DNA of 37,491 bases, from NCBI GenBank assembly GCA_913061165.1, contig CAJXTJ010000007.1, positions 1-37,491 on the forward strand. The letters are read 5' to 3'. Positions 21,006 through 33,526 of this stretch are shown piece after piece (positions within the stretch are counted from its first letter, which is position 1; each line of letters starts with the position of its first letter). This stretch comes from an uncultured Polaribacter sp. Lineage in GTDB: Bacteria; Bacteroidota; Bacteroidia; Flavobacteriales; Flavobacteriaceae. The position numbers and the translations under genes are program-made. The notes under the pieces are model-generated. The model was not told the origin of the DNA. It was given only the letters and a program-made list of their open reading frames with translations, and did no database searches.

Positions 21006-22400
21006 ATGGAGTCGCAAATACATAAAATTCATCAGCAACTGGTGAACAAAGAAATATCTTGTATGAGTTTGGTGCAAGAAAAATTAAATTTATTAAAACA
21101 AAATACACACAACTCTGTAAATTCTTTATTGGAAGATTCCGCTTTGGCTTCAGCTAAAAAAGTAGATGCTAAAATAGAAAACGGACAAGAAATTGGTTTG
21201 TTAGAAGGAATTCCGTTTGGAATTAAAGATGTGTACATGTTGCAAGGAACGTATACTACTGCTAGTTCAGACTTGTTAAAAAAATATAAAGCAGCGTATA
21301 CCGCAACTGCTATTCAGAAACTATTAGATGCAGGTGCAATTCCTTTGGTAAAAGAAAATTGTGATTCTTTTGGGCACGGTTCTTCATCAGAAAACACCAT
21401 TTTCGGAGCCGTAAAAAATGCTGTAAATCCAGATTTAGTTGCTGGCGGTTCTAGTGGAGGTTCTGCTGTAAATGTTGCAAAAGACAATACGGTTTTTTCA
21501 ATTGGTGGAGATACGGGTGGTTCTATTCGTCAGCCGGCAGGGTATAATAAAATTTACGGATTTAAACCCACCTACGGTAGAATTTCTAGATATGGCTTAA
21601 TGGCGTACGCTTCTTCTACAGATTGCGTTGGGCCTATTGCAAAGTCTCTTGAAGATGTGCGAATTGTCTTAAACGTGATGAGTGGAAAAGATCCAAGAGA
21701 TCAAACGAGTTATGTTTCTGAAGCGGTTTCAGCAGATTTGAAATCCTCTGGAATAAAAACAGTTGGTTATTATAAAAACTTCATCGAAAGTGATGCAATA
21801 AGCACCAAAATAAAAGCAGATTTTTTAGCAACCTTAGAAAAAATAAAAGCGAAAGGAATCGCAGTAAAAGCATTAGACTTTTTTGATGCTGATATTTTAG
21901 TTTCTACCTATTATACGCTGGCAATGGCAGAAACTGCTTCAAATTTATCTCGTTTAGACGGCACAAATTACGGCGCAAGAATAGAAGGAGTTAATTTAAA
22001 AGATACCTATTCAATTACGAGATCAGAAAATTTTTCAGAAGAAACAAAAAGAAGAGTTGTTGGTGGAAATCAAGTTTTATCGCAAGGTTTTTCAGATGAA
22101 ATTTATTTAAAAGCACAGAATTTAAGAAATCAAATATCGGCAAGATTTACAGAAGATTTCAAGGATGTAGATATTGTTTTATCTCCAGTAACTCCAGCGA
22201 TTCCTCCAAAAATAGGAGAGAGTTTGCAAGACCCTTTGGCAATGTACTTGTCAGATGCATATACGGTTGGTTTTAGTTTGGGAGGTTTGCCAGCGTTAAC
22301 AATACCAAAAGGAACTTCTACAGGCTTACAAATTACAGCAGACAAGAAAAAAGATGCGGAAGTTTTACAATTCGCTAACTTTTTAAACGAAATTTTATAA
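21006..22400 (+). CDS. gatA: Aspartyl/glutamyl-tRNA amidotransferase subunit A-like amidase
   Basis: Amidase-signature triad regions GIPFGIKD, VAGGSSGGSAVNVA, and GGDTGGSIRQPA; next to GatB-AspRS. Confidence 0.85.
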   Translation: MESQIHKIHQQLVNKEISCMSLVQEKLNLLKQNTHNSVNSLLEDSALASAKKVDAKIENGQEIGLLEGIPFGIKDVYMLQGTYTTASSDLLKKYKAAYTATAIQKLLDAGAIPLVKENCDSFGHGSSSENTIFGAVKNAVNPDLVAGGSSGGSAVNVAKDNTVFSIGGDTGGSIRQPAGYNKIYGFKPTYGRISRYGLMAYASSTDCVGPIAKSLEDVRIVLNVMSGKDPRDQTSYVSEAVSADLKSSGIKTVGYYKNFIESDAISTKIKADFLATLEKIKAKGIAVKALDFFDADILVSTYYTLAMAETASNLSRLDGTNYGARIEGVNLKDTYSITRSENFSEETKRRVVGGNQVLSQGFSDEIYLKAQNLRNQISARFTEDFKDVDIVLSPVTPAIPPKIGESLQDPLAMYLSDAYTVGFSLGGLPALTIPKGTSTGLQITADKKKDAEVLQFANFLNEIL

Positions 22401-25400
22401 TGGAATTAGCGAAAATACAGGAGGTTTTAAAAGCCCACGATTTAGAATTGATTATTGGGTTAGAAACACACGTTCGTTTAAATACAAAATCTAAACTATT
22501 TTGTTCTTGTCCGAATTTAGAATCAGAAGTTCCGAATGAAAATATCTGTGCTGTTTGTACAGGACAAATGGGCGTTTTACCGGCCATTAATAAAGAAGCA
22601 ATTACAAAAGCGATTTATTTTGGAAAAGCCGTGAATTCTTCTTTTTCAAACGAGATTACTTCTTGGGATCGTAAACATTATGAATATCCAGACAATCCTA
22701 AAAATATACAAATTACACAGTTTCACAATCCTGTAATTCCAGATGGTGAAGTTTGTTGTTATAGAAATGACGGTTCTCAATTTACGGTTTCATTAACGCA
22801 AACACATATTGAAGAAGATGCGGCTAAATTAATACATGAGAAGAAAATTTCTCTAGTAGATTTTAATAAAGCAGGTGTACCTTTAATTGAAATTGTTACA
22901 GATCCTTGTATTCGGAACATAGAGGATGCTGCTACCTATGCCCAGTACATTCAAAGAATTGTTCAGAATTTAGGTATTTCTGAAGCAAATTTAGAAAAAG
23001 GAGAGTTTAAATCTGATGTTTCTGTTTCGTTGAGAAAGATTGGTGAAGTAGTTTTAAATCCAAGAACAGAAATCAAAAATTTAAATTCTTTTAAATTTAT
23101 GGTAGAAGCGCTAATGGAAGAAATTGAGAAGCAATTAAACTACTTTACAACGCACAAAGAATTTAGGCCAGAACAAACTACAGTTTTATGGGATGCAGAC
23201 TTAAAGCAAACTAAAACCATGCGAACAAAAGAGTTTGAAGCAGACTATCGTTTTATCTCTGAGCCAGACTTACCTTTTGTTTCTATAAAAGACATTGTAG
23301 AAAGTATAAATATTGATGCAAGTGCATTGCCTTATGCAGTAGAAACGGTATTAATTAAAGGAGGTGTTTTGCCACAAGATGCAAAGTTTTTTACCGCAGA
23401 TGCCATTCGTTCTAAAATATTTATGGCGATTAATAATGTTATCCAGGATGCCTCTTTTGTTGCAAAAACATTGGTAAATAATATGGATGCAGGTGGATAT
23501 CAAAACATTCATAATGTAGCAGATTTAATTGCTATTTTTCAGTTATTTAAAGCAGATAAAATCACGTCTGTTTTGGTTCAAAATGCAATTACATCGTATT
23601 TAAAAGAACCTACTTTCGATTACAAAAAGTACTTTGATGAAAATACGATTTCTCAGGATAAAATTACAGCTGCAATTGCAACAGTAATCTTTAAAAATGA
23701 AGCAATTTCAAATGATATTAAAAAGGGAAATCAAGGAAAGGCAGGAATTCTTGTTGGTAAAGTTATTGCTATTATTGGAAAAGGAGCGTCAGGGAAAGTA
23801 ATTCGTGAGGGTGTTATAAAAGCGATTAGCGAAAAAGGAGCTATTAGCGATTCGACAATAGTAGTTAGCGAAAAGCTAGTAGCGAATAGCGAACAACTAA
23901 AAGAGAAAAGCCAAGAACCAATTGCTAAAAGTCAGCAGCCAGTTATTATCAAAGAAGAATATAGAACACATAAAATATCTGAATTATCAGAAGCATCCAT
24001 CACAGAAAAAGTAACTTTATCTGGTTGGGTTTCTAGTGTTAGAGATCACGGAGAATTGATGTTTATCGATTTAAGAGATTCAAGTACACAGATTTTTCAA
24101 GTGCGTTTAAGTAGCCAATCATTTCCTAATTTGGACGAGTTAGTAAAGTTAAAGCCAGAATCTGTCATTGCGGTTACAGGAACTGTAGTGCAAAGAAGAG
24201 AAGACGACTATAATGCGGGTTTAAGAACCGGTAAATTAGAATTAGAAACTTCTGACTTAGAGATTTTAAACCTATCTAAAACCTTACCTTTTGAAATTAA
24301 AAGAGCTTTTAAAAGTAATGAGAAAGTCCGTTTTGAATACAAGTTTTTAGACCATAGAAATGATGAGGTTCGGCGCGCAATTGTAAACAGACATAAAGTC
24401 ATAAAACTACTACGTGATATCTTAGATGAAGAGGAATTTTTAGAAATCGAAACGCCTATTTTAACTGCTGGAACAGACGAAGGAGCAAGAGAATTTATTG
24501 TACCAACAAGAAAACAGGCTGGTTCTTTTTATACATTACCACAAGCACCTCAGCAATTTAAGCAGATGTTAATGGTGGGCGGATTTGAAAAATATTTCCA
24601 AATTGCGCGTTGTTTTAGAGATGAAGATTCTCGTGGAGACCGTCAGCCAGAATTTACACAGTTAGATATTGAAATGGCGTACGCGAGTATGCAACAAATC
24701 ATTGATTTAAATACCAAAATGTTTAATGAAGTGGTACGAAAAATCTATGGTAAAAAATGGATTTTATATCCATTCGAAGTAATTACTTATAAAAATGCCA
24801 TGGATAAATACGGTTGTGATAGACCGGATTTACGTTATGGATTGCAAATGCAAGACATTACAGACATTGTTAAGGATACAACTTTTCAAGTTTTTAGCAA
24901 ACCAATCGATGCAGGTGGCATTGTAAAATGTATTAAGGTTTCTGCAAAAGAGCAAGGAAATAAAAGAATGTCTAAAGGGCAAATTGAAAACCTAACAGCA
25001 ATTGCGCAGCAAAACGGATTGGGCGGATTGGCATACATCATCGTGAATGAAAACGATTTACAATCGCCAATTATTAAGTTTTTAGGCGAAGAGATCGCAG
25101 CAAACATTATAAAAGCTACAAATTCCCAGCTTGGAGATATTGTGTTTTTCTCTGCGGCTGATTATGCAACAGCAAATAAGGCATTAGATGCGGTTCGTCA
25201 AGAAATGGGACGTATTTTAAAGTTAATCAACCCCAAAGAGTTAAGACCTGCTTGGGTTGTTGACTTCCCGATGTTTGAAAAAACAGAGGAAGGCAGATGG
25301 ACATTTACGCACAATCCTTTTTCTATGCCAGCAATCTACGACTTAGAAAAGCACATGAAGGGAGAAGAAGAAGCGATCGGAACTATTATAGCCCAGCAAT

Positions 25401-25741
25401 ACGATTTAATCTTAAACGGTTTTGAAATTGGTGGAGGTTCTGTGCGTGCACATAAATCAGAAATTCTAGAAGCAACCTATAAAAATATGGGGTATAATAA
25501 AGAAGAGATGATGAAAAGTGTTGGCACTATGCATAAAGCGTTTCAATATGGTGCACCGCCGCACGGTGGAATTGCATGGGGTGTTGACCGCTTAATGATG
25601 ATTTTAGAAAAGAAAGCATCTATTAGAGAGGTAATGGCGTTTCCGAAAACAGGTTCGTCAGAAGATTTATTATTCAATGCGCCTTCAATTTTGTCGGATA
25701 AAAAGGTAGAAGAAATGAATGTTCGCATTCTTCGAAAATAA
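22400..25741 (+). CDS. aspS: Bifunctional amidotransferase subunit GatB - aspartate--tRNA ligase AspS fusion
   Basis: GatB: GLETHVRLNTKSKLFCSCPN...ICAVCTGQMGVLPAIN, FNKAGVPLIEIVTDP, C-terminal YqeY-like GKAGILVGKVIAIIGKGASGKVI. AspRS: GWVSSVRDHGELMFIDLRD, FRDEDSRGDRQPEFTQLDIEMA, GGIAWGVDRLMMIL. One uninterrupted 1113-aa frame. Confidence 0.95.
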   Translation: MELAKIQEVLKAHDLELIIGLETHVRLNTKSKLFCSCPNLESEVPNENICAVCTGQMGVLPAINKEAITKAIYFGKAVNSSFSNEITSWDRKHYEYPDNPKNIQITQFHNPVIPDGEVCCYRNDGSQFTVSLTQTHIEEDAAKLIHEKKISLVDFNKAGVPLIEIVTDPCIRNIEDAATYAQYIQRIVQNLGISEANLEKGEFKSDVSVSLRKIGEVVLNPRTEIKNLNSFKFMVEALMEEIEKQLNYFTTHKEFRPEQTTVLWDADLKQTKTMRTKEFEADYRFISEPDLPFVSIKDIVESINIDASALPYAVETVLIKGGVLPQDAKFFTADAIRSKIFMAINNVIQDASFVAKTLVNNMDAGGYQNIHNVADLIAIFQLFKADKITSVLVQNAITSYLKEPTFDYKKYFDENTISQDKITAAIATVIFKNEAISNDIKKGNQGKAGILVGKVIAIIGKGASGKVIREGVIKAISEKGAISDSTIVVSEKLVANSEQLKEKSQEPIAKSQQPVIIKEEYRTHKISELSEASITEKVTLSGWVSSVRDHGELMFIDLRDSSTQIFQVRLSSQSFPNLDELVKLKPESVIAVTGTVVQRREDDYNAGLRTGKLELETSDLEILNLSKTLPFEIKRAFKSNEKVRFEYKFLDHRNDEVRRAIVNRHKVIKLLRDILDEEEFLEIETPILTAGTDEGAREFIVPTRKQAGSFYTLPQAPQQFKQMLMVGGFEKYFQIARCFRDEDSRGDRQPEFTQLDIEMAYASMQQIIDLNTKMFNEVVRKIYGKKWILYPFEVITYKNAMDKYGCDRPDLRYGLQMQDITDIVKDTTFQVFSKPIDAGGIVKCIKVSAKEQGNKRMSKGQIENLTAIAQQNGLGGLAYIIVNENDLQSPIIKFLGEEIAANIIKATNSQLGDIVFFSAADYATANKALDAVRQEMGRILKLINPKELRPAWVVDFPMFEKTEEGRWTFTHNPFSMPAIYDLEKHMKGEEEAIGTIIAQQYDLILNGFEIGGGSVRAHKSEILEATYKNMGYNKEEMMKSVGTMHKAFQYGAPPHGGIAWGVDRLMMILEKKASIREVMAFPKTGSSEDLLFNAPSILSDKKVEEMNVRILRK
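23821..23940 (+). repeat. Low-complexity repeat words in the GatB-AspRS interdomain linker
   Basis: TAGCGA at 23827, 23845, 23866, 23880, and 23887 (five copies in about 66 bp), followed by AAAAGCCAAGAAC. Confidence 0.6.
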
Positions 25742-25788
25742 ATTTAAATACCTGAAACAGAAGTATCATAAATAATCTAGTATAAAGG

Positions 25789-25819
25789 TTGTATAATTTA
25801 AAAATCTAACCTATTTTTG
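25789..25819 (+). promoter_or_regulatory. Predicted trp operon promoter
   Basis: TTG 25789-25791, 20-nt spacer, TATTTTTG 25812-25819 (TAnnTTTG), just before the leader ATG at 25827. Confidence 0.6.
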
Positions 25820-25826
25820 TTCCAGT

Positions 25827-25877
25827 ATGAGTATAACAACAAAAAATACATGGTGGTGGAACTCTCTTAATTCATAA
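25827..25877 (+). CDS. trpL: trp operon leader peptide (MSITTKNTWWWNSLNS)
   Basis: Short ORF with three consecutive TGG codons (25851-25859), upstream of a terminator and trpE. Confidence 0.9.
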   Translation: MSITTKNTWWWNSLNS

Positions 25878-25936
25878 GTGAGAACTAATCCTATATTTAA
25901 AATATAAAAAAGGCTTATCTCACGATAAGCCTTTTT
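25862..25936 (+). promoter_or_regulatory. trp attenuator with mutually exclusive helices
   Basis: 1:2 helix CTCTCTT (25862-25868)/AAGTGAG (25876-25882); antiterminator GTGAGAacTAAtCC (25878-25891)/GGcTTATCTCAC (25912-25923); terminator GGCTTATC/GATAAGCC plus T-run (25906-25936). Confidence 0.85.
25906..25936 (+). terminator. trp attenuator terminator
   Basis: AAAAAGGCTTATC TCAC GATAAGCCTTTTT; 12 nt before trpE. Confidence 0.92.
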
Positions 25937-25948
25937 CAATTCTATAAA

Positions 25949-27340
25949 ATGAAGAATATACATTTCAAAACAATTCATAAAACAAAAATTGCAGACACTA
26001 TAACGCCTGTGGGCTTGTATTTGCGGTTTAGAGACCAATATGCTAACACGCTTTTACTAGAAAGTTCAGATTATCACAGTAAAGAAGAGAGCTTTTCTTT
26101 TATTGCTATTGAACCAATAGTGCGTATGAAAGTAGACGATTATCAGTTTACAGTTTCGCATAAAGGAACCCAAATTGATAGCCAACCAATTGATAAAAAC
26201 TTTTATCAATTATTTGATAAATTCACGAATTCTATAGCATTAGATTGCCCAGCAGAATTAAAATCCTTTAATGGTTTGTATGGGTATACAACGTTCGATT
26301 CCGTTCAGTATTTCGAAAACATAAAATTTACAAATAAGAAAGCACCCTCTGCCATTCCAGAAATGCAATATAGTTTCTATAGATTTATTATTGCTATTAA
26401 TCATTTTAATGATGAAATGACATTGATAGAAAACATAGAAGAGGGCACAGAATCTCGTATTAAAGAAGTGCAAACCATTATAGATGCTCAAGCGTTTAAT
26501 ACTCAGAAATTCGAAATCGTAGGAGAGGAGACTTCAAATGTTACAGGAGAAGAATTTAAAGAATATGTACGGAAAGCAAAATCACATTGTAAAAGAGGTG
26601 ATGTTTTTCAATTGGTCTTATCACGCCAATTCCAGCAAGAATTTAAGGGAGACGAGTTTAATGTATATAGAGCGTTGCGTTCTATTAATCCTTCACCTTA
26701 TTTGTTTTATTTTGATTATGGAAGTTTCAAGTTAATGGGGTCTTCACCAGAAGCACAGATTAAAATTTCAGAAGGTAAAGCAACGATTAATCCAATTGCT
26801 GGTACGTTTAGAAGAACGGGTGATATGGCAGAAGATCTAAAATTAGGTAAGAAATTATCTGAAGATAAAAAGGAAACTGCAGAACATGTAATGTTGGTAG
26901 ATTTGGCGCGTAATGATTTAAGCAAGCATGCAGATAATGTGACTGTGGAGGTATTTAAAGAAGTGCAATATTTTAGTCACGTAATTCATTTAGTTTCTAC
27001 TGTTCGAGGAAAAATTAAAGGCAATCCGATTGAAATTGTTGGAGATACGTTTCCGGCAGGAACCTTAAGTGGTGCTCCAAAATATAAGGCAATGGAACTG
27101 ATTAATAAATATGAAAATCAGACACGTGGTTTTTATGGAGGTGCAGTTGGTATTATTGGTTTAGATGGCTCTGTTAATTTGGCAATTGCCATTCGCTCTT
27201 TTGTAAGTAAAAATAATGTATTGTATTCGCAGGCTGGTGCAGGAATAGTGATTCATTCAGACGAAGCAAAAGAATTACAAGAAGTAAATAATAAGCTAGC
27301 AGCATTAAAGAAAGCGTTGTTTTTAGCTGAGGATATTTAA
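25949..27340 (+). CDS. trpE: Anthranilate synthase component I
   Basis: LLESS feedback-type motif; GDVFQLVLSRQF, SPYLFYFDYG, AGTFRRTG, and TFPAGTLSGAPKYKAMELI. Confidence 0.96.
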   Translation: MKNIHFKTIHKTKIADTITPVGLYLRFRDQYANTLLLESSDYHSKEESFSFIAIEPIVRMKVDDYQFTVSHKGTQIDSQPIDKNFYQLFDKFTNSIALDCPAELKSFNGLYGYTTFDSVQYFENIKFTNKKAPSAIPEMQYSFYRFIIAINHFNDEMTLIENIEEGTESRIKEVQTIIDAQAFNTQKFEIVGEETSNVTGEEFKEYVRKAKSHCKRGDVFQLVLSRQFQQEFKGDEFNVYRALRSINPSPYLFYFDYGSFKLMGSSPEAQIKISEGKATINPIAGTFRRTGDMAEDLKLGKKLSEDKKETAEHVMLVDLARNDLSKHADNVTVEVFKEVQYFSHVIHLVSTVRGKIKGNPIEIVGDTFPAGTLSGAPKYKAMELINKYENQTRGFYGGAVGIIGLDGSVNLAIAIRSFVSKNNVLYSQAGAGIVIHSDEAKELQEVNNKLAALKKALFLAEDI

Positions 27341-27346
27341 AAAATA

Positions 27347-27397
27347 GCTTTTTGTTTTTCGCAGTTAGCATTTCGCTAAAAACGAAGAATCAAAAGC
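27347..27397. repeat. Imperfect intercistronic palindrome between trpE and trpG
   Basis: GCTTTTTG...TTTTTCG cag TTAGCatttcGCTAA aaa CGAAGAA...CAAAAGC. Confidence 0.55.
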
Positions 27398-27411
27398 CAA
27401 AAACTTTTAAA

Positions 27412-27990
27412 ATGAAAATATTAATTTTAGACAATTACGATTCCTTTACCTACAATTTAGTCCATATGGTGGAGAAAATTACAGGGAATTTTCCTGTAGT
27501 TTTTAGAAACGATGAAATAAGTATTGAAGCCGTAGGAAATTATGATGTGATTATGCTGTCTCCAGGACCTGGCATACCAGATGAAGCAGGAATCTTAAAG
27601 GACGTAATTAAAAGATATGCAGGTATTAAACCAATTTTCGGAGTGTGTTTGGGTTTGCAAGCAATTACAGAAGTTTTTGGCGGAACCATCATAAACTTAG
27701 AAGATGTGTTTCACGGAGTGGCAACAGAAATGCGTATTACAGATAAAGATGCTGTTATTTTTAAAGATGTTCCAGAAACGTTTTTAGCAGCACGTTACCA
27801 TTCTTGGGCGGCTACAGATGAAGGGTTTCCCGAAGAAATTCAGGTTACAGCGAGAGATGAAGATGGTTTGATTCAAGCAATTCAGCATAAAATATTTCCA
27901 ATTTCGGCAGTTCAGTTTCATCCAGAATCTATTTTAACAGATGTTGGAGAGCAGTTATTGAGAAACTTTATAAATAGTGTTAAAAAGTAA
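27412..27990 (+). CDS. trpG: Anthranilate synthase component II (glutamine amidotransferase)
   Basis: ILDNYDSFTYNLV, PGPGIPDEAG, GVCLGLQAI, and FHPESILT; ATG 27412. Confidence 0.96.
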   Translation: MKILILDNYDSFTYNLVHMVEKITGNFPVVFRNDEISIEAVGNYDVIMLSPGPGIPDEAGILKDVIKRYAGIKPIFGVCLGLQAITEVFGGTIINLEDVFHGVATEMRITDKDAVIFKDVPETFLAARYHSWAATDEGFPEEIQVTARDEDGLIQAIQHKIFPISAVQFHPESILTDVGEQLLRNFINSVKK

Positions 27991-27991
27991 T

Positions 27992-28047
27992 AAAGTAAGG
28001 AGTTTATAAAGTTTAGCAATAACTTTGTATTAGCTCCTCATTACTTT
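27992..28047. repeat. Extended intercistronic stem-loop between trpG and trpD, not a terminator
   Basis: AAAGTAAGGAG...CTCCtcaTTACTTT outer stem and TATAAAGTT/AACTTTGTA inner stem; no T-run. Confidence 0.55.
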
Positions 28048-28070
28048 CAAATTTTTAGAATTTAATTCAA

Positions 28071-29060
28071 ATGAAAGCAATTTTAAATAAATTATATAAG
28101 CACGAGAGATTGTCTAAATCTGAAGCAACACAGGTCTTAAAAGACATTGCATCAGAACAATACAATGCTGCTCATTTGGCTTCATTTATGACGGTCTTTA
28201 TGATGCGTCCTATTACAGCAGACGAACTTTCTGGTTTTAGAAATGCATTGAAAGAATTGTCTATAAAAGTAGATTTATCAGATTACAATACTATTGATAT
28301 TGTTGGGACTGGTGGAGATGGAAAAAATACTTTTAATATCTCAACACTAACTTCTTTTATTGTAGCAGGAACAGGACAAAAAGTAGCAAAACATGGTAAT
28401 TACTCTGTGTCTTCGCAATCTGGTTCTTCAGATATGTTAGAAAGTTTTGGATATAATTTCACAAATAAAGAAAGTGTACTGAGAGAACATTTAGAGAAAG
28501 CAAATATTTGTTTTTTACATGCTCCAAAATTTCATCCAGCAATGAAAGCAGTTGGCCCAACGAGAAAAGCATTGGCTTTAAAAACTTTTTTTAACATGCT
28601 TGGCCCTTTGGTAAACCCGAGTTCTCCTAAGAATCATATGCTTGGAACTTTCAATTTAGAAATTGCACGTTTGTATAATTATATTTTGCAAGAAGAAAGT
28701 GTCAATTACGGTATCGTGCATGCTTTAGATGGTTATGATGAAATCTCGTTAACAAGCGGATTTAAATTTTTTACTAAAAAAGGAGAACAAATTATAAACC
28801 CAGAAGATTTAGGTCAAAAGAGAATTCAGCAATCAGAAATATTTGGTGGAAACTCTATAGCAGACGCCGCTAAGATTTTCAAGTCTATTTTAGAAGGAAA
28901 CGGAACGGAAGCTCAAAATAATGTTGTGCTAACAAATGCCGCTTTCGCTTTAAAAATTGTAGATGAAGCAAAGAGTTTCGAAACTGCTTTTAGTGAAGCT
29001 AAAGATTCACTTTTTGGTCTGAAAGCAAAACAAACATTAGAGAAATTACTGAGTATTTAA
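28071..29060 (+). CDS. trpD: Anthranilate phosphoribosyltransferase
   Basis: VGTGGDGKNTFNIST, KHGNYSVSSQSGSSDMLE, and LGPLVNPSSPKNHMLG. Confidence 0.96.
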   Translation: MKAILNKLYKHERLSKSEATQVLKDIASEQYNAAHLASFMTVFMMRPITADELSGFRNALKELSIKVDLSDYNTIDIVGTGGDGKNTFNISTLTSFIVAGTGQKVAKHGNYSVSSQSGSSDMLESFGYNFTNKESVLREHLEKANICFLHAPKFHPAMKAVGPTRKALALKTFFNMLGPLVNPSSPKNHMLGTFNLEIARLYNYILQEESVNYGIVHALDGYDEISLTSGFKFFTKKGEQIINPEDLGQKRIQQSEIFGGNSIADAAKIFKSILEGNGTEAQNNVVLTNAAFALKIVDEAKSFETAFSEAKDSLFGLKAKQTLEKLLSI

Positions 29061-29061
29061 A

Positions 29062-29241
29062 ATGATAAAAAAGAAAAATAGTTTAATCTCAATTATACCT
29101 GCCTTTTTATTAATGGGAGCCGCAGTTGGTATTCAAACAACGAATGTTTTAAGAGATACGGTAATAGGACTCATTGTAGGACTCATCGTTTACTTTTTTT
29201 TAAAACATAGAAATAAAATAATTAATAATAAAAAGTCATAA
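29062..29241 (+). CDS. Small membrane protein inside the trp operon (59 aa)
   Basis: MIKKKNSLISIIPAFLLMGAAVGIQTTNVLRDTVIGLIVGLIVYFFLKHRNKIINNKKS; two TM segments; 1 nt after trpD and 1 nt before trpC; below ORF-track cutoff. Confidence 0.75.
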   Translation: MIKKKNSLISIIPAFLLMGAAVGIQTTNVLRDTVIGLIVGLIVYFFLKHRNKIINNKKS

Positions 29242-29242
29242 A

Positions 29243-30031
29243 ATGACCATTTTAGATAAAATAATAGCGTTTAAGAAGACAGAAATTGCTAAGATTAAGG
29301 CAGAGGTACACATTAAGAAATTAGTTGAAAGTCCAAATTTTGGAAGAGAAGTTTTCTCATTAAAAAAATCTTTATTAGAAGTTGGTTCAACAGGTATTAT
29401 TGCCGAGTTTAAACGCCAATCTCCTTCTAAAGGAATAATTAATGATACTGCAACGATTGCAGATGTAACTAACGGATATTTAGATGCAAATGTTGCTGCA
29501 CAATCAATTTTAACAGATACTTCCTTTTTTGGAGGATCGATGGCAGATTTGATGGAAGCAAGAGTTATCAATCAACAAAAACCAATCTTAAGAAAAGATT
29601 TCATTGTAGACGGATTTCAAATCGTAGAGGCAAAAGCCATTGGTGCAGATGTGATATTATTAATTGCTGCTTGTTTAACTTCTGAAGAATTAAAAAACTA
29701 TGGAAACTTAGCAACAGATTTAGGATTGGAAGTGCTATATGAAGTGCATACACAAGAAGACTTAGATAAAATTAATGATTTAGATAATAAAATCATTGGA
29801 ATTAACAATCGAAATTTAAATACTTTTGAAGTTGATTTAGAGAATTCTATTAAATTATCAAACCAAATTCCTGACAGTAGTTTAAAGATTTCTGAAAGTG
29901 GAATTTCAGACCCCAAAATTATTATGGGTCTAAAAGAATATGGTTTTCAAGGGTTTTTAATAGGAGAAACCTTTATGAAACAAGAGAACCCTGGTGAGGC
30001 TTGTCTAGAATTTATTAGTCAAATAAGATAG
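29243..30031 (+). CDS. trpC: Indole-3-glycerol phosphate synthase
   Basis: IIAEFKRQSPSKG, PILRKDFIVDGFQI, GINNRNLNTFEVDL, and SESGISDP. Confidence 0.96.
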   Translation: MTILDKIIAFKKTEIAKIKAEVHIKKLVESPNFGREVFSLKKSLLEVGSTGIIAEFKRQSPSKGIINDTATIADVTNGYLDANVAAQSILTDTSFFGGSMADLMEARVINQQKPILRKDFIVDGFQIVEAKAIGADVILLIAACLTSEELKNYGNLATDLGLEVLYEVHTQEDLDKINDLDNKIIGINNRNLNTFEVDLENSIKLSNQIPDSSLKISESGISDPKIIMGLKEYGFQGFLIGETFMKQENPGEACLEFISQIR

Positions 30032-30033
30032 TT

Positions 30034-30729
30034 ATGAAACTAAAGGTTTGCGGAATGAAATACGTAGAAAACATCCAACAAGTTGCAGCATTGCAGCCAG
30101 ATTATTTGGGTTTTATTTTCTACGAAAAATCGAAAAGAAATTTTGAAGGAATCATTCCAGAACTTCCAAAGTCAATTAAAAAGACAGGTGTTTTTGTGAA
30201 TGAAATGCTTGAGATTGTAATCTCTATGGTTGAAGAATATCGCTTAGAAGCGATTCAATTGCATGGCGATGAATCTGCAGCCTATGTGTTAACATTACAA
30301 AATCAATTAGAAGCGCGAAGGGCTTTATTTATCGAAGAGAATAAGCACATAAAAAAGAAAAAAAATCAACATTTTATTTCTGAGAAGAATGTTGAAATTA
30401 TCAAGGTTTTCGGAATTAAAAATGCATTTGATTTTGATGTTTTAAAACCATATATAGACCTTGTGGACTTCTTTTTATTCGATACGAAAGGAGAAGAAAG
30501 AGGAGGGAACGGAACGAAGTTTGATTGGAAAGTATTAGAGAATTATCCGTTTGAAAAGCCTTTCTTTTTAAGTGGAGGAATTGGTCTAGAGGATGTTGAA
30601 GGAATTCATGAAATAATTAATTCAGAATTACCACTGCATGCATTAGATGTAAATAGTAAATTTGAAAGTATACCAGGAAGGAAGAAAACAGAAGAATTAA
30701 AGAAGTTTATACAAGATTTAAAGGTTTAA
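30034..30729 (+). CDS. trpF: Phosphoribosylanthranilate isomerase
   Basis: [34 protein letters not shown], and [11 protein letters not shown]. Confidence 0.94.
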
Positions 30730-30782
30730 TTGTTGAAATATTGCAACGAATTAACAAGCATATGATTACACAAAATAAAGAT

Positions 30783-31967
30783 ATGAAATCAAAATTTCAC
30801 CCAGACAAAAACGGATATTTCGGACAATTTGGAGGTGCATTTATTCCAGAATTGTTGCATCCAAATGTGCAAGAATTAGCAGATAATTATATTCAAATTA
30901 TCGAATCTTCAGAATTTCAAACAGAATATAAAGAGCTCTTAAAAGAATATGTTGGCAGACCTACACCTTTGTATCTGGCAAAAAGATTGTCAGAAAAATA
31001 CGGTGCGCATGTGTATTTAAAACGTGAAGATCTATGTCATACCGGTGCGCATAAAATTAACAATACTGTTGGTCAGATTTTAATTGCAAAGAAGTTAGGT
31101 AAAACTAAAATTATTGCTGAAACAGGTGCTGGGCAGCACGGTGTTGCAACTGCTACAGTTTGTGCATTAATGGGATTAGAATGCACCGTTTTTATGGGCG
31201 AAAAAGACATCGTACGTCAGGCACCAAATGTTACTAGAATGAAAATGTTAGGAGCAAAAGTAGTGCCTGCAACCAGTGGTTCTAAAACACTAAAAGATGC
31301 AACAAACGAAGCAATTCGTTATTGGATTCAGCATCCAGAAACTTTTTATTTAATTGGTTCTGTTGTTGGTCCTGCACCACACCCAGATATGGTAGCGCGT
31401 TTACAAGCTATTATTTCAGAAGAAATGAAATGGCAATTAAAGGAGAAGACAGGAAAAGAAAATCCAGATACAATTATTGCTTGTGTTGGGGGAGGTTCTA
31501 ACGCTGCTGGTGCTTTTTATCACTATTTAGATGATGAAAATGTAGAGTTAATTGCTGTTGAAGCAGCAGGTTTGGGAGTGCATTCTGGTGAGAGTGCTGC
31601 AACTTCTCAATTAGGGCAGGTTGGTATTATTCATGGAAGCAAGACGATATTAATGCAAGATGAATATGGGCAAATTGTAGAGCCTTATTCGATATCTGCA
31701 GGTTTAGATTATCCAGGAGTTGGTCCTTTACATGCTTTTTTATATGAAAGTGGTAGAGCAAAATTTATGAGCGCTACAGATCAAGAAGCGTTAGATGCCG
31801 CTTTTGAATTGACGAAGATAGAAGGAATTATTCCAGCTTTAGAAACAGCGCACGCTTTGGCCGTTTTAGATAAAATTACGTTTAGAAAAGATCAGGTTGT
31901 TGTTGTGAATTTATCAGGTAGAGGAGACAAAGATTTAGAGATTTATACAAAATATTTAGAAGCATAA
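30783..31967 (+). CDS. trpB: Tryptophan synthase beta chain
   Basis: [40 protein letters not shown], and [11 protein letters not shown] 30783 chosen by similarity to typical TrpB N-termini. Confidence 0.96.
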
Positions 31968-31973
31968 AGAAAG

Positions 31974-32762
31974 ATGAATAGTAATATAGTACACATTGAA
32001 AAGGAGTTAACAGACTTAAGAAATCAATTAAAAAATCATTCTCTATATAAGAGACTCAATACTTTAGAAGATGTACAGACATTTATGTCGCTGCATGTTT
32101 TTGCAGTATGGGATTTTATGTCGCTTTTAAAAGCAATACAGATTAATCTAACATGTGTTTCAATCCCTTGGATGCCTGTTAAGAATGCAGAATTAGCACG
32201 TTTTATTAATGAGATTGTGGTAGCTGAAGAAAGTGACCATGATGCACACGGCGTGGTTAAAAGTCATTATGAAATGTATTTAGATGCAATGGCTGAAGTG
32301 CAGGCAGATCCAAGTAAAATGAATAATTTTTTGGAAACTTTACAATCCAATGTCTCTGTAGGAAAAGCATTAGAAAGTTTAGAAGTACCAAATGCAGTAA
32401 AAGAGTTTTTAAGCTTTACGTTTGATACTATAAAAACAGATAAAACACATTTAATTGCTGCTTCCTTTACTTTTGGAAGAGAAGATGTAATACCAGATAT
32501 GTTTATCAATATTATTGACAAAGCTACCCTTGAAAACAATAAATCGTATGATAGTTTTAACTACTATTTAAATAGGCATATTGAGTTGGATGGTGATGAA
32601 CATGGCCCTTTGTCTTTAAGAATGATTGAAGAATTATGTGGTAATGATGCACTAAAATGGGAAGAAGTTTTAGAAACTGGGAAAAGAGCACTGCAATTAA
32701 GAATTAATTTATGGAGTGCAATTGAGCAAGAAATAACAGCACAATTAAAAGTAGCAATATGA
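31974..32762 (+). CDS. DUF3050 (heme-oxygenase-like fold) protein within the trp operon
   Basis: LEDVQTFMSLHVFAVWDFMSLLKAIQ, IVVAEESDHDAHG, and IELDGDEHGPLS; stop/start overlap with trpA. Confidence 0.82.
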   Translation: MNSNIVHIEKELTDLRNQLKNHSLYKRLNTLEDVQTFMSLHVFAVWDFMSLLKAIQINLTCVSIPWMPVKNAELARFINEIVVAEESDHDAHGVVKSHYEMYLDAMAEVQADPSKMNNFLETLQSNVSVGKALESLEVPNAVKEFLSFTFDTIKTDKTHLIAASFTFGREDVIPDMFINIIDKATLENNKSYDSFNYYLNRHIELDGDEHGPLSLRMIEELCGNDALKWEEVLETGKRALQLRINLWSAIEQEITAQLKVAI

Positions 32763-33526
32763 ATTTGATTCAAGAATTATTTCAAAAAAAAGATAAAAAT
32801 GTATTGTCTATTTATTTTACTTGTGGGTATCCTAATTTAGAAGATACCACCAATGTAATTTTAGCATTAGGAGAGAGTGGTGTAGATTTTATAGAAGTTG
32901 GTTTGCCTTACTCAGACCCTTTGGCAGACGGGCCGACTATTCAAGAAAGTAGTCATAAAGCTTTAGAAAATGGGATTAATTTAGATGTTATTTTTGAGCA
33001 ATTAAAAACGATTAAAGAAACAAATAAGACTCCGTTAATAGCAATGGGCTATTTGAATCAGTTATTGAAATATGGTGAAGATAAATTCTGTCAAGCGTGC
33101 GTAGATTGCGGTATAGATACTGTAATTCTTCCAGATTTACCTATGGTAGAGTTTGAAAACCACTATAGACAACTCTTTGATAAATATGGACTTACAAACA
33201 TTTTTTTAATAACACCTCATACATCAGAAGATCGAATTAGAAAGATAGATTCCTATTCTAAGGCATTTATTTATGTAGTTGCATCTGCATCCATTACCGG
33301 TGCAAAAGGAGAAATTTCTAGTAATCAAATTGGTTATTTCGAGAGAATACGTGCAATGAATTTGCAAAGTAAATTAATTATAGGTTTTGGTATCTCTGAT
33401 AAAACTGCTTTTAATACTGCTTGTTCATATGCAAACGGAGCCATTGTAGGCTCTGCTTTTATAAAGCATTTAGGAACTAATGGAATAGGGAAAATAGATG
33501 ATTTTATAAAACCAATTATTTCTTAA
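32759..33526 (+). CDS. trpA: Tryptophan synthase alpha chain
   Basis: FIEVGLPYSDPLADGPTIQESS, AMGYLNQ, LPDLPM, and GFGISDK. Confidence 0.96.
   Translation: MNLIQELFQKKDKNVLSIYFTCGYPNLEDTTNVILALGESGVDFIEVGLPYSDPLADGPTIQESSHKALENGINLDVIFEQLKTIKETNKTPLIAMGYLNQLLKYGEDKFCQACVDCGIDTVILPDLPMVEFENHYRQLFDKYGLTNIFLITPHTSEDRIRKIDSYSKAFIYVVASASITGAKGEISSNQIGYFERIRAMNLQSKLIIGFGISDKTAFNTACSYANGAIVGSAFIKHLGTNGIGKIDDFIKPIIS

Follow-up and report, generated by a model that had tools for sequence, protein, structure and literature searches.

The family of leaders closest to the one described here, Bacteroid-trp (Rfam RF01692), was listed as a cis-regulatory candidate of Bacteroidetes by Weinberg et al. in 2010 (PMC2864571). 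According to excerpts of two later accounts, such an element lies upstream of the Flavobacterium psychrophilum trp operon (2019; PMC6414381), and leader-peptide attenuation was inferred for amino-acid operons of that species from its transcriptome (2021; PMC9723704); these excerpts give neither the spacing of the leader start site nor an antiterminator register. In the enterobacterial trpL leader, tandem Trp codons, alternative 1:2, 2:3, and 3:4 pairings, and a leader stop codon beside region 2 make up the switch. Another relevant system is the trpL leader RNA of Sinorhizobium meliloti (rnTrpL), whose 5′ end lies at or beside the trpL ATG (PMC7298713).

Here, we analyzed a leader upstream of trpE in an uncultured Polaribacter sp. 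Judging from its sequence, conservation, and computed folding, it is very probably a ribosome-mediated transcription attenuator of the trp operon that senses charged tRNA-Trp, and a member of RF01692. It shares with the F. psychrophilum leader the position of a Bacteroid-trp element upstream of trp genes and, as far as excerpts of those accounts tell, attenuation as the inferred mode of control. A preceding sequence-only reading of the locus had found such an attenuator notable in a Bacteroidota; with the Rfam family dating from 2010 and F. psychrophilum mentioned in the excerpts, that part of the reading is not supported.

Results

A Bacteroid-trp leader upstream of trpE

An Rfam scan of the window (the whole 37,491-nt stretch of DNA analyzed, whose positions are used throughout) returned a single match, to RF01692, at 25807-25919. 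The match scored 50.6 bits (gathering cut-off, 49) and covered the complete model (1-131). Like other members of the family, the element lies upstream of trp genes in a Bacteroidota and combines a tandem-Trp ORF with a terminator that follows it; it differs in a score barely above the cut-off and in a weak outer stem. The long stem of the model, which includes the Trp codons, was partly formed here, with eight nonstandard alignment positions and a computed energy of -8.2 kcal/mol, and the first ~17 matched positions (from 25807) fall in the predicted promoter, outside the predicted RNA. The element is a clear, ordinary member of a family catalogued since 2010, and not a new one.

By its trpE, the host groups with Polaribacter and Tenacibaculum (named relatives: Polaribacter, Tenacibaculum, and Lutibacter). 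RF01692 matches were present in 237 of 300 genomes and in 155 of the 187 genera of the host's family, and the element is single copy in the host genome. The Rfam model is of limited sensitivity: a pattern search recovered the element in four of nine same-genus genomes that had no Rfam match, and in Chitinophaga and Fulvivirga, evident WWW leaders ahead of trpE scored below the cut-off. We also observed Trp-rich leader ORFs ahead of trpE in Prolixibacteraceae, Saprospiraceae, Fulvivirga, Chitinophaga, and Natronoflexus (loci L216-L221 and L227-L229), several with visible terminators and most under the Rfam cut-off.

The features of the locus are collected in Table 1. The coordinates given in the sequence-only reading for the ORF, Trp codons, stop codon, pairing regions, and terminator were all correct when checked directly on the sequence.

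Table 1. Features of the trp leader and operon (window positions)
Feature	Position	Strand	Basis
-33-type promoter element, TTG	25789..25791	+	20 nt before -7 box; spacing 19-20 in 46/48 host-genus relatives
-7 element, TATTTTTG	25812..25819	+	Bacteroidota sigma-A consensus TAnnTTTG (PMC6847099); in 48/49 parsed host-genus relatives
Predicted transcription start	25824..25825	+	inferred from F. johnsoniae spacing (PMC6847099)
Leader peptide ORF, MSITTKNTWWWNSLNS	25827..25877	+	direct reading; Trp-rich homologues at 126 aligned loci
Sensor, three tandem Trp codons, TGGTGGTGG	25851..25859	+	WWW or GWW (two or three Trp) in 126/126 aligned relatives
Region 1, CTCTCTT (partner AAGTGAG)	25862..25868	+	6/7 positions pair; across 42 relatives, 78% paired cells
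Region 2, AAGTGAGAACTAATCC; partner of region 1 or, in the antiterminator, of region 3	25876..25891	+	duplex energy, paired-cell counts
Region 3, GGCTTATCTCAC; terminator 5′ arm and loop, antiterminator partner	25912..25923	+	duplex energy, paired-cell counts
Intrinsic terminator hairpin, 13 bp, TCAC loop, T-run	25907..25936	+	-16.2 kcal/mol; hairpin in every aligned relative
trpE, first structural gene	25949..27340	+	NCBIfam best match TIGR00564 trpE_most, 414 bits (model cut-off 517.7, not reached)
Operon trpE-trpG-trpD-trpC-trpF-trpB-DUF3050-trpA	25949..33526	+	NCBIfam/Pfam matches

Read directly, the leader ORF comprises 16 codons, with its ATG at 25827-25829 and a TAA stop at 25875-25877; such a sensor gene goes unlisted in ORF lists. 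The sequence TGGTGGTGG occurs once in the whole window against 0.03 occurrences expected, and the leader fold had a z score of -5.0, with none of 200 shuffles equally stable. The pairing proposed earlier between CTCTCTT and AAGTGAG (25876-25882) is present, though the helix is interrupted by a central U-U mismatch. The alternative pairing of region 2, of which GTGAGAACTAATCC occupies 25878-25891, with region 3 was borne out by a duplex energy of -11.6 kcal/mol. For the terminator, the core arms GGCTTATC (25912-25919) and GATAAGCC (25924-25931), the loop, and the T-run reaching 25936 are as had been described, but the stem is longer than thought: it extends over 25907-25919 and 25924-25936, the outermost five pairs (25907-25911 with 25932-25936) all being A-U.

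The trpE gene begins 12 nt past the last base of the hairpin, and trpE was found downstream of the element in 139 of the 140 loci searched. The operon has a complete set of trp genes, and within it a DUF3050 protein (31974-32762, + strand; PF11251, 332.9 bits) sits between trpB and trpA. Several relatives (G010, G013, G019, and G023) have a DUF3050 gene at ~6-7 kb downstream from their trp leader, a distance consistent with the same trpB-trpA position.

An alternative is that the hairpin simply terminates the upstream gatB-aspS gene and that the WWW ORF is incidental, as this gene is on the same strand and ends at 25741, 165 nt ahead of the hairpin. A two-box promoter, however, lies between the two, and relatives whose upstream neighbor differs or is reversed (for example, with gatB-aspS reversed or undetected in the flank) retain the leader, region 2, and the terminator, in an element that spans 155 genera. 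On account of the intervening promoter and the retention of the element beside changed neighbors we dropped the upstream-gene terminator, which we consider extremely unlikely. The upstream gene, at 22400-25741 (+ strand), encodes an in-frame fusion of GatB with a complete bacterial AspRS (1113 aa, without stops). Of 24 same-genus genomes searched, 10 had full-length or near-full-length GatB-AspRS fusions, and the host genome also carries a separate AspRS (G000:C167:1406-3145; 39% identical); a literature search found no report of the fusion.

Proposed switch and its computed energies

In the proposed mechanism, RNA polymerase would start at about 25824, and a ribosome would begin the leader almost at the 5′ end of the RNA. 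When charged tRNA-Trp is scarce, the ribosome would stall on UGG-UGG-UGG and cover region 1, so that region 2 (GUGAGAACUAAUCC) could pair with the terminator 5′ arm and loop (GGCUUAUCUCAC). With this antiterminator formed, the terminator would not form and trpE onward would be transcribed. When Trp is plentiful, the ribosome would reach the UAA and mask region 2, and the hairpin with its U-run would then halt transcription. As in attenuators of this class, antiterminator and terminator are mutually exclusive, and the stop codon is placed to block the antiterminator, as judged from sequence and energies.

For the energy computations, the assumed ribosome footprint reached 12 nt past the A-site codon's first base. 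With the ribosome at any Trp codon and the transcript extending just past the loop, the antiterminator was computed at -7.7 kcal/mol; moving the ribosome to the stop codon brought the same RNA to -0.3 kcal/mol, leaving the terminator (about -16) free to form. The antiterminator of this leader was computed at -8.9 kcal/mol and at close to zero with the ribosome on the stop codon, and across relatives the 2:3 pairing drops to about -1.7 kcal/mol under the same condition. The mean 2:3 energy was -9.1 kcal/mol in the host genus (n = 42) and -12.2 kcal/mol in other genera (n = 84), compared to -4.1 and -7.0 kcal/mol, respectively, when region 2 was shuffled. The computed energies thus fit an attenuator switch. 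Since the complete terminator exceeds the antiterminator in stability, antitermination would have to be kinetic. The competing 1:2 fold (-8.2 kcal/mol) is the weakest among the 42 host-genus leaders (mean, -13.2), and the antiterminator is the preferred fold (-11.1 kcal/mol) of naked RNA extending as far as the terminator loop; because of these two properties, the default state of the untranslated leader is uncertain. Compared with enterobacterial trpL, whose logic it shares, this leader has a sigma-A type Bacteroidota promoter, a predicted 5′UTR of 2-3 nt, a weak 1:2 hairpin, and an antiterminator partner that takes in the terminator loop.

Conservation across relatives and two antiterminator registers

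We aligned 126 leaders, 42 from the host genus (here the Polaribacter/Tenacibaculum group) and 84 from other genera. Fourteen of 140 loci were omitted, either unparsed (L005, L118, L129, and L136), parsed at the wrong ORF (L033, L127, and L128), or near-duplicates or loci with uncertain starts (L003, L012, L020, L026, L035, L045, and L065). Across the 126 leaders, the relation among the Trp codons, the stop codon, region 2, and the loop of the terminator is kept. The N-terminal part of the peptide is variable. In the host genus, region 2 has its GTG 2-7 nt past the stop codon's first base, and in 51 of the 84 leaders from other genera the stop codon is a TGA inside region 2 (TCGTGA). Conservation of the Trp codons, the stop position, the 1:2, 2:3, and 3:4 pairings, and the downstream trpE across the family upholds the main claim of the sequence-only reading, that of ribosome-mediated trp attenuation.

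These data also bear on whether another kind of sensor controls the operon, the peptide being irrelevant. T-boxes, Trp-binding RNAs, and TRAP-type proteins can control trp operons in other phyla, as is generally known. Neither the T-box model nor the enterobacterial Trp_leader model matched in the gathering scan or in a scan of 25700-26000 at E ≤ 1, and no other Rfam family reached its gathering score. The T-box was dropped, as it was absent even among sub-threshold matches. Moreover, tandem Trp codons are kept in every aligned relative and the stop codon lies within a few nt of region 2, or inside it, in most, a constraint expected of a translating ribosome alone. We consider a different Trp sensor extremely unlikely.

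The antiterminator takes one of two registers. In the host genus, GTGAGA/TCTCAC joins region 2 to the end of the 5′ arm and the loop, with 86% of cells paired versus 29-47% for slid controls; in other genera, TCGTGA/TCACGA joins region 2 to the loop and the first bases of the 3′ arm, with 98.6% of cells paired. The alignments point to an antiterminator pairing that has slid between lineages with the principle retained. We found no report of a two-register antiterminator in the literature passages on such leaders. A covariation check of trpE upstream regions, suggested in the sequence-only reading, succeeded for the terminator, where 5 of 10 pairs showed compensatory changes among other genera, but not for the antiterminator: no two-sided covariation occurred within either clade, because its pairs hardly vary. 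Support for the antiterminator is therefore conservation rather than covariation, and consists of in-register conservation, slid controls, and shuffled energies. RNAalifold recovered the terminator alone from the other-genus alignment; the probable reason is that region 1 varies from subgroup to subgroup and lacks a pair-to-pair alignment.

We note two further observations among the relatives. In one leader (L047, 430-537), the loop reads GTGA in place of TCAC, which breaks the core antiterminator pairing, while the remaining leader is conserved. Several relatives (L014, L017, L036, and L038) carry a similar insert (cattacgaggag... type) between terminator and trpE, possibly a dispersed repeat.

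Promoter and predicted near-leaderless start

The sequence-only reading was silent on the promoter, which lies 7 nt before the ATG. From the G of the -7 box to the leader ATG, the distance was 6-9 nt in 48 of 48 host-genus relatives and, as here, exactly 7 nt in 37 of them. In F. johnsoniae, transcription starts 4-5 nt past this G (PMC6847099), and the same spacing would therefore place the start at 25824-25825, with a 5′UTR of 2-3 nt. Among other genera, 32 loci had a G-to-ATG distance of ≤9 nt (exactly 5 nt in 19) and 51 loci one of ≥10 nt (16-22 nt in most). A Kozak-like A at -3 was present in 33 of the 51 long-spacing loci versus 6 of the 32 short-spacing loci; its rarity in the short group would fit a base that is not transcribed, or not used, there. 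The host's family is thus predicted to split into near-leaderless and leadered forms of the trp leader.

The leaderless trpL of S. meliloti (PMC7298713) offers a precedent, by analogy and from another phylum, for the near-leaderless arrangement predicted here. That RNA likewise starts at its ATG and acts in trans (PMC7298713), and the predicted terminated RNA of the present locus is ~110 nt, so attenuation could be accompanied by a trans action of the terminated RNA or the peptide in the manner of rnTrpL/peTrpL. We consider such an additional role unlikely; the peptide differs in its N-terminal part from relative to relative, which makes a conserved peptide target improbable.

Discussion

Leader-peptide attenuation emerges from this analysis as the standard control of the trp operon in the host's family, and not as a curiosity. 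Two aspects deserve specialist attention: the predicted near-leaderless start and the existence of two registers for the antiterminator. On balance, we lean toward the view that the ORF sensing Trp is translated from an essentially leaderless RNA in the host genus and, depending on lineage, elsewhere in Flavobacteriaceae, such that the attenuator would need initiation at a 5′-terminal AUG, and that sister lineages use a normal 5′UTR and the other antiterminator register.

Leaderless mRNAs are uncommon in the phylum: they make up 5.5% in F. psychrophilum, and 87% of leaders in F. johnsoniae exceed 10 nt (PMC6847099). If the proposed arrangement is true, the attenuator would rely on 5′-terminal AUG initiation although fewer than 6% of F. 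psychrophilum mRNAs are leaderless. The promoter-to-ATG spacing yields a directly testable prediction on leaderless initiation in a phylum without Shine-Dalgarno sites, and the near-leaderless and leadered versions of one switch would provide a natural comparison within the family.
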